Of a DNA stretch of 64,000 nt, positions 44,633-48,257 are shown piece after piece. The DNA is taken from the NCBI RefSeq assembly GCF_016908635.1, contig NZ_JAFBEG010000007.1:1-64000 (forward strand), given 5' to 3'. The DNA is from Sporohalobacter salinus (GTDB lineage: Bacteria > Bacillota > Halanaerobiia > Halobacteroidales > Acetohalobiaceae). Within the stretch, counting starts at the first letter, position 1. Each line of letters opens with the position of its first letter. The translations under genes were made by a program, and so were the position numbers. The notes below the pieces were generated by a model. It saw only the letters and a list, made by a program, of their open reading frames with translations, was not told the origin of the DNA and did no database searches.

Positions 44633-44661
44633 TTGACATTAATTATGTAAGTTATTATAAT
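44633..44661 (+). promoter_or_regulatory. Promoter of the glcT-pts cluster
   Basis: TTGACA (44633-44638), 17-base spacer, TATAAT (44656-44661), a consensus sigma-A promoter about 40 bases before the first RAT element. The rest of the 415-base interval before glcT holds only this promoter and the antiterminator/terminator leader. Confidence 0.88.
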
Positions 44662-44700
44662 ATAATTAAACTGAATGTTATATTGAATAATTTTTCGTCT

Positions 44701-44797
44701 GGCGTGTTACTGTTTATACAGGCATAAGCTAGGGGAGATATAAGTATATCATTATTTTTAGTAGGATGGTATATTTATATCTTTTCCTAGTTTTTTA
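44701..44797 (+). promoter_or_regulatory. RAT antiterminator and terminator in the glcT leader
   Basis: GGCGTGTTACTGTTTATACA followed by GGCATAAGCTAGG closely resembles the GlcT-bound ribonucleic antiterminator of Bacillus ptsG (GTGTTACTG...CAGGCAT). Its 3' half overlaps a long terminator: CTAGGGGAGATATAA pairs with TTATATCTTTTCCTAG, followed by TTTTTTAT (44728-44797). GlcT binding would favour read-through. Confidence 0.85.
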
Positions 44798-44857
44798 TAT
44801 GTTATAATAAAAAAAGGGGGGTTAGACAATTTTATAGTTAATAGGGGGAACTTTGAA

Positions 44858-45721
44858 ATGACTGGATCTAAGAAAAGGAAATACAAAATAAAAAAAGTTT
44901 TTAATAATAATGTAGTATTGGCAATTAAAGAAGGTAATTTTCAAAATGAATCTATATTATTAGGAAAAGGGATTGGTTTTTCAAAAAGTAAAGGAGATAT
45001 TATTAAAGCCGATAAGGTGACTATTGAAAGAAAATTTACTCCAGTTACTGATGAAAAAAAAGAAGTTTATCAACAATTACTAACTAAGGTTGATGAAAAA
45101 GTAATTGGGGTAACTGAAGAAATTATAGCTATAGTTTCTTCTAAATTGGATGAAAAACTTGATAGCCATATTCATATTGCTTTAGCAGATCATATTAGCT
45201 TTTCATTAAAAAGGATTCAAGAAGGAATGGATGTTGTCAATCCTTTTTTACATGAAACTAAGACTTTATATAGCGAAGAATATGAATTAGCCAAAGAAGC
45301 AGTAGGCATGATTGAGGAGAGATTTGATCTTTCTATTCCTGAGGAAGAAATTGGGTTTATTACCCTCCACATTCATTCAGCTAGAGAAAATAAAGGAGTT
45401 TCTAAAACAGTAAAGTATACTTCGCTAATTAAAAAAATGGTAGATAAAGTTGAAGAAGAATTAGAGGTAGAATTTTCTTATGAAAGTTTAAATTATGCTA
45501 GATTAGTTACTCATTTAAAATTCGGATTAGAAAGAATAGAACAGAATGAAGTTAATCAAAACCCTTTATTGGACATTATAAAGACTAATTTTCCTCAAGC
45601 TTATAAAATGGCTGTTAATTTATCTAAAATTATAGAAAGAGAGTTAGACCTTGAAGTACCAGAAGATGAGATTGGTTATTTAGCGATGCATTTACAAAGA
45701 TTAAGAAAAGAATTAGATTAA
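44858..45721 (+). CDS. glcT: PTS transcription antiterminator GlcT (BglG family)
   Basis: 287 residues. An N-terminal RNA-binding CAT domain (1-60: KIKKVFNNNVVLAI, ILLGKGIGFSKSKGD) precedes two PRD domains (about 75-175 and 185-287). Conserved PRD histidines are seen in DSHIHIALADHI, ITLHIHSARE, THLKFGLERI and LAMHLQRLRK. The protein binds RAT RNA and stops termination when glucose transport leaves its PRDs in the right phosphorylation state. It is the first gene of the cluster, with ATG behind AGGGGG. A RAT stands in its own leader as well as before ptsG. Confidence 0.92.
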   Translation: MTGSKKRKYKIKKVFNNNVVLAIKEGNFQNESILLGKGIGFSKSKGDIIKADKVTIERKFTPVTDEKKEVYQQLLTKVDEKVIGVTEEIIAIVSSKLDEKLDSHIHIALADHISFSLKRIQEGMDVVNPFLHETKTLYSEEYELAKEAVGMIEERFDLSIPEEEIGFITLHIHSARENKGVSKTVKYTSLIKKMVDKVEEELEVEFSYESLNYARLVTHLKFGLERIEQNEVNQNPLLDIIKTNFPQAYKMAVNLSKIIERELDLEVPEDEIGYLAMHLQRLRKELD

Positions 45722-45788
45722 TCAAGTAATATTTGAATTATTTATTAGTAATCTTGCTGAAAACAATTACAATTAAATATTTTAACGA

Positions 45789-45885
45789 CTAGCGTGTTAC
45801 TGGTTAAACAGGCATTAGCTAGGAGAAGGTGTAAATTTATTCTTGTTAGAGAATGATTTATATCTTTTTCTAGCTTTTTTTATTT
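45789..45885 (+). promoter_or_regulatory. RAT antiterminator and terminator in the ptsG leader
   Basis: CTAGCGTGTTACTGGTTAAA followed by CAGGCATTAGCTAGG is the second RAT. The overlapping terminator pairs AGCTAGGAGAAGGTGTAAAT with ATTTATATCTTTTTCTAGCT, then TTTTTTATT. No strong separate promoter is seen after glcT, so it may also be reached by read-through from the upstream promoter. Confidence 0.85.
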
Positions 45886-45925: not shown

Positions 45926-47353
45926 ATGAGGTTTTTCAAAAAATTACAAAAAATTGGTAAGGCTTTAATGACTCCAGTTTCAGTTTTGCCGGCAGCGGGT
46001 ATTTTAATAGCAGTTGGCCGAATGTTGCAAGAAGAAAGTGGCTTAGTTTCTAATATAGGTAAAGTAATATTTAATGGTGGTATTTCCATTTTTGAAAATT
46101 TAGCTTTAATATTTGCTATTGGGGTTGCTATTGGATTTGCTAGTGAAGCAGTGGCAGCATTAGCAGCAGGAGTTGGGTTTTCTGTTTATAGTAAAGTATT
46201 AGGTACAATGGCTGGAATTATTAAGATTAGCGAACAAACTGGTGGAAGCATTGAATCTATTAATACAGGAGTATTTGGTGGGATTCTTGTTGGTGTTATA
46301 GCATCGCAGATGTATAAGAGATTTCATGATACTGAATTACCCCCCTACTTAGGTTTTTTTGCTGGTAAACGTTTAGTACCGATTGTTACAGCGGCTGCTT
46401 CTTTGATTGCAGGTGTTTTATTAGCTTTTATTTGGCCGCCAATTCAAATTAAAATTAATGAATTTGCAAGATTTGCAATGAATTCTCAGATTGGTCCAGC
46501 ACTTTATGCAGCAGGTAAGAGAGCTTTGATTCCAGTAGGGCTACATCATGTTTATTATCCACCATTTCTTTATGAATTTGGCAGATTTACAACAGAAGCT
46601 GGTCAAGTATTAAGAGGTGAAACAGCACGATATTTTGCTGGTGATCCTACAGCTGGATATTTTATGGCAGCTGAATTTCCATTGATGCTATTTGCTTTAC
46701 CAGCAGCTTGTTTAGCAATGTATTTAAGAGCAGAGCCAGATAAAAAAGCAAAGGTTGCAGGAGTTATGTCTACAGCAGCATTAACTTCAATTTTAACTGG
46801 GATTACTGAACCAATTGAATTTTCATTTATTTTTGTTGCTCCACCATTATATCTTTTTCATGTTTTAGGTGGTTTTTTATCTGGATTATTAACTAAATTT
46901 TTTGGAATTAGATTAGGATATACTTTTTCTGCTAGTACAATTGATTATATTTTAGGAATTAATAATGCAGGGCATCCAATTAAGTTTTGGTTTATTGTAG
47001 GGCCAATTATGGCAGTACTATATTTTGTAGTTTTCTATTTTGCAATTCCAATATTTGATTTTAAAACCCCAGGTCGTGGTGACAATAATGATGAAGATAA
47101 TGATGAGGTTTTTGAAGGGGATGAAAAAGCAGAACAAGTTTTAAAAGCTTTAGGTGGAGCTGAGAATATTGAAAGTATCGATGCTTGTATTACTAGGTTA
47201 AGATTAGAAGTTGTCGATCCTGATAAAGTTAATGAAAAAAGTCTTAAACAATTGGGAGCTTCTGGTGTAATGAAATCTGGTAGTAGTAGTGTGCAAGTAG
47301 TATTTGGTCCTGAGTCTGATACTCTTAAAACGAAAATTGAAAAGTTAATGTAA
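45926..47353 (+). CDS. ptsG: PTS glucose permease EIICB
   Basis: 475 residues. The membrane EIIC domain (1-375) begins with KKLQKIGKALMTPVSVLPAA and carries the glucose-family motif GITEPIEFSFIFVAPPLYLF, with VGLHHVYYPPFLYEFG in the substrate region. After an acidic linker (DNNDEDNDEVFEGDEK) comes EIIB (about 400-475), with phosphorylation site Cys421 in SIDACITRLRLEV. There is no fused EIIA; a separate EIIA gene follows. It transports and phosphorylates glucose or a close analogue. ATG lies behind AAGGAGG. RAT control matches the glucose class. Confidence 0.93.
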   Translation: MRFFKKLQKIGKALMTPVSVLPAAGILIAVGRMLQEESGLVSNIGKVIFNGGISIFENLALIFAIGVAIGFASEAVAALAAGVGFSVYSKVLGTMAGIIKISEQTGGSIESINTGVFGGILVGVIASQMYKRFHDTELPPYLGFFAGKRLVPIVTAAASLIAGVLLAFIWPPIQIKINEFARFAMNSQIGPALYAAGKRALIPVGLHHVYYPPFLYEFGRFTTEAGQVLRGETARYFAGDPTAGYFMAAEFPLMLFALPAACLAMYLRAEPDKKAKVAGVMSTAALTSILTGITEPIEFSFIFVAPPLYLFHVLGGFLSGLLTKFFGIRLGYTFSASTIDYILGINNAGHPIKFWFIVGPIMAVLYFVVFYFAIPIFDFKTPGRGDNNDEDNDEVFEGDEKAEQVLKALGGAENIESIDACITRLRLEVVDPDKVNEKSLKQLGASGVMKSGSSSVQVVFGPESDTLKTKIEKLM

Positions 47354-47470: not shown

Positions 47471-47956
47471 ATGTTTAATATCTTTAAAAAAAATAAAGAA
47501 GTTAAATTATTTGCTCCATTAACGGGAAAAATTATTGATTTATCCGAGGTGCCCGATGATGTATTTGCTAATAAAGTAGTTGGAGATGGGGTAGCTATTG
47601 AACCAACAGATAATATTCTAGTATCACCAATAACAGGAGTTATTAAACAAATTTTTCCTACCAAACATGCTGTGGGGCTTGAAACTTCTCAAGGGGTTCA
47701 AATATTAATGCATATAGGCATTAATACTGTAGATTTAAATGGGAAAGGCTTTGAAAAATTGATTGAAGAAAAATCTGAAGTAGAATTAGGAGATAAGTTA
47801 ATTAAATTTGATCCAGAGTATATTAAAGAAAATGCTACTTCTTTGATTACTCCAATTCTTATTACTAATGTGGATGGGGTTGGAAATATTGAAGTCACGG
47901 ATGTTGATGAAGTAGCTGCTGGAGAAGATGAAATAATAACAGTTAATAATATTTAA
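47471..47956 (+). CDS. crr: PTS EIIA (glucose type)
   Basis: 161 residues, soluble EIIA of the Crr/glucose family. The active-site His81 is in LMHIGINTVDLNGKGF and the assisting His66 in FPTKHAVGLET. APLTGKIIDLSEVPDDVFA opens the domain. It relays phosphate from HPr to the EIIB domain of PtsG. ATG lies behind AAGGAGG. It completes the split IICB + IIA arrangement of the cluster. Confidence 0.94.
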   Translation: MFNIFKKNKEVKLFAPLTGKIIDLSEVPDDVFANKVVGDGVAIEPTDNILVSPITGVIKQIFPTKHAVGLETSQGVQILMHIGINTVDLNGKGFEKLIEEKSEVELGDKLIKFDPEYIKENATSLITPILITNVDGVGNIEVTDVDEVAAGEDEIITVNNI

Positions 47957-47993: not shown

Positions 47994-48257
47994 ATGAAAA
48001 AAGAAACAGTAACAGTCAATAATGATACAGGAATTCATTCAAGACCAGCTTCAATGCTTGTTCAAGAGGCAAATAAGTTTGATTCTAAGGTGTTAATTAG
48101 CAAAGATAGTCAAGAGGTAAGTGCTAAAAGTATTATGGGGATTATGGGTTTAGGTGTTAACAAAGATTCTGAAATAATTATTAAGGCTGAGGGTAATGAT
48201 GAAAAAGAAGCTGTGCAGGCATTAGTTAATTTAATTGAACAAGGATTTGATGAGTAA
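47994..48257 (+). CDS. ptsH: HPr phosphocarrier protein
   Basis: 87 residues from ATG at 47994, with AGGGGTG upstream; an upstream ATG four codons earlier adds a non-homologous MYCI. His15 in TGIHSRPASML is the PTS site. Ser46 in SAKSIMGIMGLG is the HPr-kinase site used in Firmicutes carbon catabolite control. HPr carries phosphate from enzyme I to EIIA. The usual partner ptsI (enzyme I) is not in the window, so it is encoded elsewhere. Confidence 0.95.
   Translation: MKKETVTVNNDTGIHSRPASMLVQEANKFDSKVLISKDSQEVSAKSIMGIMGLGVNKDSEIIIKAEGNDEKEAVQALVNLIEQGFDE

Follow-up and report, generated by a model that had tools for sequence, protein, structure and literature searches.

We identified two putative GlcT-dependent antitermination gates that appear to lie in series on a single transcript of a glucose-PTS operon in Sporohalobacter salinus, one before glcT itself and the other before ptsG. 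As judged from sequence, autogenous antitermination is very probably the best reading of this arrangement. It fits the identity of the regulator as GlcT, the GlcT type of both RATs, terminators that are mutually exclusive with them, a promoter found only before RAT 1, and a glcT leader that is conserved in two families of the order as well as in other Bacillota. The locus lies within the window, the 64,000-nucleotide stretch of S. salinus DNA that was analysed, and contains the following regulatory elements:

44633-44661, forward strand: sigma-70-type promoter of the glcT-ptsG operon, TTGACA-17-TATAAT, matching 12/12 consensus positions
44699-44732, forward strand: RAT 1, antiterminator hairpin in the glcT leader; covariance model 46.8 bits, structure showing covariation
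44727-44796, forward strand: terminator t1 with its U-tract; 28 bp, -29.1 kcal/mol, hairpin z = -7.2
45789-45822, forward strand: RAT 2 in the glcT-ptsG intergenic region; covariance model 50.5 bits
45818-45881, forward strand: terminator t2 with its U-tract, overlapping RAT 2; 27 bp, -29.3 kcal/mol, z = -7.9

The original prediction described two RATs with a nearly identical core, each overlapping a terminator, and this description is borne out. The 55-nt blocks around RAT 1 and RAT 2 are 82% identical and spaced 1090 nt apart. Their pairing reads CTGGC-GTG-TTA-CTG-TTTATA-CAG-G-CAT-AA-GCTAG at 44699-44732 and CTAGC-GTG-TTA-CTG-GTTAAA-CAG-G-CAT-TA-GCTAG at 45789-45822. In each case, GCTAG forms the 3' strand of the RAT lower stem and doubles as the 5' foot of a long hairpin with a tract of 6-7 U behind it. 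Because GCTAG is common to both folds, RAT and terminator are mutually exclusive at either element. Folded alone, the RAT segments reach -14.8 and -12.7 kcal/mol and the isolated terminators -27.7 and -28.9 kcal/mol (-29.1 and -29.3 kcal/mol with the stem base included), all single-sequence energies at 37 °C without salt effects for an organism that is probably halophilic. The terminators thus outweigh the RATs, suggesting that termination is the default and that a RAT needs protein to win. The hairpin z-scores (-7.2 and -7.9) compare the isolated hairpins with dinucleotide shuffles. Neither hairpin was found by a generic terminator scan (loop of 3-8, at most 20 pairs), since the stems are too long for its loop and stem limits; folding shows both clearly. 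The terminators are AU-rich, which makes their efficiency uncertain. With glcT flanked by two RAT/terminators and a PTS permease gene downstream, the layout is that of a bgl-type two-gate operon.

Both elements combine a conserved TGTTACTG/CAGGC core with a covarying lower stem. A search of the 2.68-Mb genome for the exact core, TGTTACTG-N2-10-CAGGCA, gave two occurrences, both at the glcT-ptsG locus, while a reversed-pattern control gave zero in the same sequence. Rfam returned no family at gathering score, with chance matches only at a relaxed threshold, and so offered no curated RAT model to lean on. Our covariance model, R1, was built from 51 RATs of GlcT loci from many Bacillota, including both RATs of this locus. 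It yields E-values of 2e-10 for RAT 1 and 1.8e-11 for RAT 2 over 97 kb, scores that arise partly by construction as both are model rows; no such effect bears on the count of exact patterns or on the shuffle controls. Across the 51-RAT alignment, 93% of cells are paired, the covariation score is 0.384 versus 0.158 in shuffles (0/500 as high), and 82 cells are double-changed versus 23 in shuffles. Slid registers of the alignment score at most 0.105, none close to 0.384, a comparison that leans in favour of the structure because it was written from the sequences themselves. Over the whole genome, the model gives two credible RATs, both at the glcT-ptsG locus. A third RAT-like match (G000:C9:75391-75435, 24.2 bits), inside a coding sequence reading like a BioY-type protein, was rejected as chance.

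The promoter and the two RAT/terminators are associated with four genes:

44858-45721, forward strand: glcT, antiterminator protein, CAT-PRD1-PRD2, 287 aa; NF047357 335.3 bits, CAT_RBD and two PRD stretches
45926-47353, forward strand: ptsG-like EIIBC, 475 aa; best NCBIfam match TIGR02002 (glucose IIBC), 538 bits, below the cut-off of 592
47471-47956, forward strand: glucose-type EIIA (crr-like); TIGR00830, 155 bits, above the cut-off of 97.5
47994-48257, forward strand: HPr (ptsH-like); TIGR01003, 105.5 bits, above the cut-off of 47.9

The score of the regulator against NF047357, the NCBIfam GlcT equivalog, exceeds the cut-off of 320, while its 240 bits against the LicT model fall below the cut-off of 300, and the BglG and LacT cut-offs are also not reached. 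Pfam assigns an N-terminal CAT_RBD (57.7 bits) and PRD in two stretches (179.3 bits), and the B. subtilis GlcT structure 3rio aligns over CAT-PRD1 with E = 5e-44. The candidate PRD histidines H104, H171/H173, H219, and H278 are invariant in 10 members of the order, and their phosphorylation is predicted. A search of the genome found GlcT as its sole CAT-domain protein, which rules out any other such protein as the RAT ligand and leaves GlcT as the only plausible one.

RNA binding, the chain of phosphorylation steps, the strength of the feedback, and the use of the glcT promoter for ptsG are all proposed here by analogy with B. subtilis GlcT and the bgl operons. Transcription would start constitutively at the 44633-44661 promoter. 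Without active GlcT, t1 would take the 3' strand of RAT 1 and stop transcription before glcT, and t2 would do likewise before ptsG. In B. subtilis, GlcT is inactivated via PRD1 by phosphorylated EIIBC as long as glucose is lacking, and it is freed from this inhibition on glucose uptake (PMC12445079). During glucose uptake, EIIBC-Glc would hand its phosphate to the sugar and not to PRD1 of GlcT, and the unphosphorylated GlcT would dimerise, its CAT domain stabilising the RAT hairpins. Read-through of t2 would then extend into the ptsG, EIIA, and HPr genes, and read-through of t1 into glcT would constitute positive feedback. Read-through into both glcT and ptsG had been predicted and gains support from the anatomy and conservation of the locus, from which we infer the feedback. 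The first GlcT would be supplied by GlcT-independent read-through past t1. As both target and inhibitor of GlcT, EIIBC would add a glucose-relieved negative loop beside the positive one.

Across the dual loci, t1 is predicted to be less stable than t2 in 14/15 lineages (two-sided sign p = 0.001), although these lineages are not fully independent, with two Brevibacillus and two Alkaliphilus-type entries being related. This difference fits a leaky first gate, by which some GlcT would be kept, and a tight second gate. It could also mean that leakage at t1 makes glcT constitutive in effect, with only RAT 2/t2 working as a switch and RAT 1 adding little, as might be suggested by C. acetobutylicum bglGTH, whose carbon-source response runs mostly via the RAT downstream of the regulator (PMC12628678). 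We consider this unlikely, however, since the RAT 1 core and its paired lower stem are kept across distant clades, and since t1 and t2 are about equally stable at the source locus itself (-29.1 versus -29.3 kcal/mol), the weaker t1 being a property of the group and not of this locus.

A further question is whether ptsG is transcribed mainly from a promoter of its own between glcT and RAT 2, so that the gates would act in parallel and not in series. In B. subtilis, ptsG and glcT are separate transcription units (PMC12445079), and in Halonatronum, where an EIIA gene intervenes, a perfect promoter stands before the second RAT. At the source locus, however, only 67 nt separate the glcT stop from RAT 2, and the best promoter match before RAT 2 is 9/12, no better than shuffles (mean 8.8). 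Promoter-like sites precede RAT 1 in 20/20 dual loci, with 9-12 of 12 matches, and the mean promoter excess over shuffles in these loci is 1.95 before RAT 1 versus 0.49 before RAT 2. As this excess is found before RAT 1 and hardly before RAT 2, we take the gates to be in series on one transcript and regard a main ptsG promoter as quite improbable. Least plausible is that the terminated leader is itself the product, a short RAT-bearing RNA that would titrate GlcT and create a threshold, glcT feedback being secondary: early termination behind a perfect promoter would yield much short RNA, and the truncated ptsG leader RNA S505 accumulates in B. subtilis (PMC12445079), but a terminated leader holds the RAT 3' strand in its terminator and should bind GlcT poorly.

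A survey of glcT leaders in the order agrees with autogenous antitermination as the preferred reading. GlcT is present in 10/13 genomes of the order, and 7 of these 10, from both families, have promoter, RAT, and terminator directly before glcT. The remaining three have a RAT before a ptsG located upstream of glcT, as seen in G010 and G012 and as inferred from coordinates for G011. The leader is not indispensable, since a RAT immediately upstream is lacking from some of the order's GlcT genes, those of the Orenia type. CAT proteins and RATs occur together in 10 genomes, with exactly one CAT protein each, and are both absent from 3, a count limited to 13 related genomes in which glcT and the RATs are linked by locus. 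Because they adjoin, the association partly reflects the presence or loss of one locus. The genomes with neither are G001, which belongs to the same genus as the source, G003, and G008; two of them also have no PTS_EIIC protein, suggesting that PTS sugar uptake is patchy in its distribution.

Two loci depart from the two-gate layout. At L118 (G010:C2:388500-396500), ptsG and an EIIA gene come before glcT, which lacks a RAT immediately upstream; a terminator-like hairpin, AGAAAGAGATATAA...TTATATCTTTTTCT, is kept in the upstream sequence and may be the remnant of a lost switch. Locus b of Halanaerobium salsuginis (L048:1-325) is missing the RAT upstream of glcT, and the sequence there, where the contig starts, resembles the terminal part of a transposase gene; an insertion may have separated this glcT from its switch. 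Several Halanaerobium genomes carry two paralogous glcT-EIIBC loci with two RATs each (locus a: L035, L037, L038, L039; locus b: L042, L043, L045, L047). The four RATs differ at a few core or lower-stem positions (for example GTGTAACTG versus GTGTTACTG, GGCGTG versus GGCATG), differences that may prevent cross-talk between the two GlcT proteins. Nearly all RATs in the Halanaerobium genomes searched lie at glcT loci.

We compared 81 GlcT-like loci, namely the source locus and the 80 closest to the query, a sample that does not give frequencies for all GlcT. A RAT directly precedes glcT in 36/81, so the arrangement is not special to the source locus, and the two-gate plan is itself established for bgl operons. 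Among the 36, a RAT also precedes the downstream gene in 25, glcT is the only gene so preceded in 10, and one locus has a further RAT before an upstream EIIA gene. They come from Halanaerobiales, from relatives of Alkaliphilus, Anaerosolibacter, and Tissierellales, from Brevibacillus and the Paenibacillus glycanilyticus group, and from one Clostridium; Clostridium GlcT loci mostly have a RAT before ptsG only. The trait falls in at least three separate GlcT clades. On a quick GlcT tree with single support values it needs 7 changes versus 26.7 expected from shuffled labels, at least 5 of the 7 being forced by well-supported branches, which indicates a trait clustered by descent yet gained or lost several times. 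These state counts use the covariance model, as a regex-plus-structure filter missed the upstream RATs of L051, L057, L064, and L054. The last of these, from Clostridium sp. ZS2-4 (L054:5174-6942), has RATs before its EIIA gene and glcT and, at 21 bits, a weak one before ptsG, which may amount to three consecutive gates. Viewed by eye, the lower stem of RAT 1 in the source locus and in dual loci L033-L081 is often closed by U-A or A-U, and that of RAT 2 by C-G.

Three genomes of the order (G005, G006, and G010) contain further strong GlcT-type RATs (42-49 bits), overlapping terminator sequences, before ABC sugar-transporter genes:

L153, G005:C5:213978-214023, reverse strand: RAT
L154, G006:C1:1321975-1322020, forward strand: RAT
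L155, G010:C6:50196-50241, reverse strand: RAT
L156, G010:C1:169980-170027, reverse strand: RAT

Two of the four precede xylF-like genes, encoding a binding protein with an ABC ATPase in G005 and, in G010, a binding protein and then a chemotaxis receptor. The other two, in G006 and G010, precede CUT1-type systems with a glucose-binding-protein-like component, that of G006 being closest to the solved glucose-binding protein 2b3b (E = 1.5e-105). The NCBIfam matches of these transporters are below curated cut-offs, and the substrate assignments are tentative. Being the only CAT protein in each of the three genomes, GlcT probably regulates non-PTS sugar uptake there, and a PTS antiterminator may control non-PTS glucose uptake in these relatives. 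We further suggest, as a speculative extension, that GlcT could be a wider regulator of glucose uptake in this order than in Bacillus, acting as a serial gate on its own production and on the glucose PTS and, in certain relatives (the source genome not among them), on ABC sugar importers too via a RAT/terminator switch of like kind, with leaky-first, tight-second self-gating giving a thresholded and possibly hysteretic response.

Compared with known systems, the locus resembles B. subtilis glcT-ptsGHI in its orthologous-type GlcT, the glcT-ptsG gene order, and the GlcT-type RAT overlapping a terminator before ptsG. In B. subtilis, however, glcT is driven by a constitutive promoter of its own, with no switch described before it (PMC12445079), in agreement with the original prediction, whereas the S. 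salinus locus encodes EIIA separately and has a RAT/terminator ahead of glcT. E. coli bglGFB likewise has the antiterminator gene first, flanked by two RAT-controlled terminators and followed by a PTS permease gene, with positive autoregulation (PMC9499468). BglG suppresses both flanking terminators (PMC9499468), but it answers beta-glucosides, its RATs differ in sequence details, the promoter is controlled by H-NS and Crp, and the regulon is not orthologous. C. acetobutylicum bglGTH shares RATs before the regulator and the PTS genes, a single promoter, and AU-rich terminators of >20 bp; both gates respond, with BglG-dependent read-through at each (PMC12628678). That system is disaccharide-induced and has a LicT/BglG-type RAT, GGATTGTTACTG-N6-7-CAGGCGAGACC, in contrast to the GlcT-type CTNGCGTGTTACTG-N6-CAGGCATNAGCTAG of the source locus. 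In Enterococcus faecalis nagY-nagE, a BglG/SacY-family antiterminator binds the RAT of its own 5'UTR (Kd ~4 nM) and autoregulates (PMC9981650), but one RAT before nagY serves the whole operon plus hylA, and the response is to N-acetylglucosamine. Both SacY and NagY autoregulate (PMC9981650; PMC12502629). A search of open-access papers found no report of a RAT before glcT. The kind of circuit is already known, and the modest novelty is its presence in a regulator subgroup whose model organism is without it.

Autogenous antitermination, as known for BglG, SacY, and NagY, thus seems to be common in the GlcT subgroup too, and the constitutive glcT of B. subtilis would not be the general rule. For organisms with this leader, our reading predicts glucose-dependent glcT expression and possible threshold behaviour. 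With the covariance model, halophilic anaerobes may be searched for GlcT regulons, and some of these regulons seem to extend to ABC sugar transporters.
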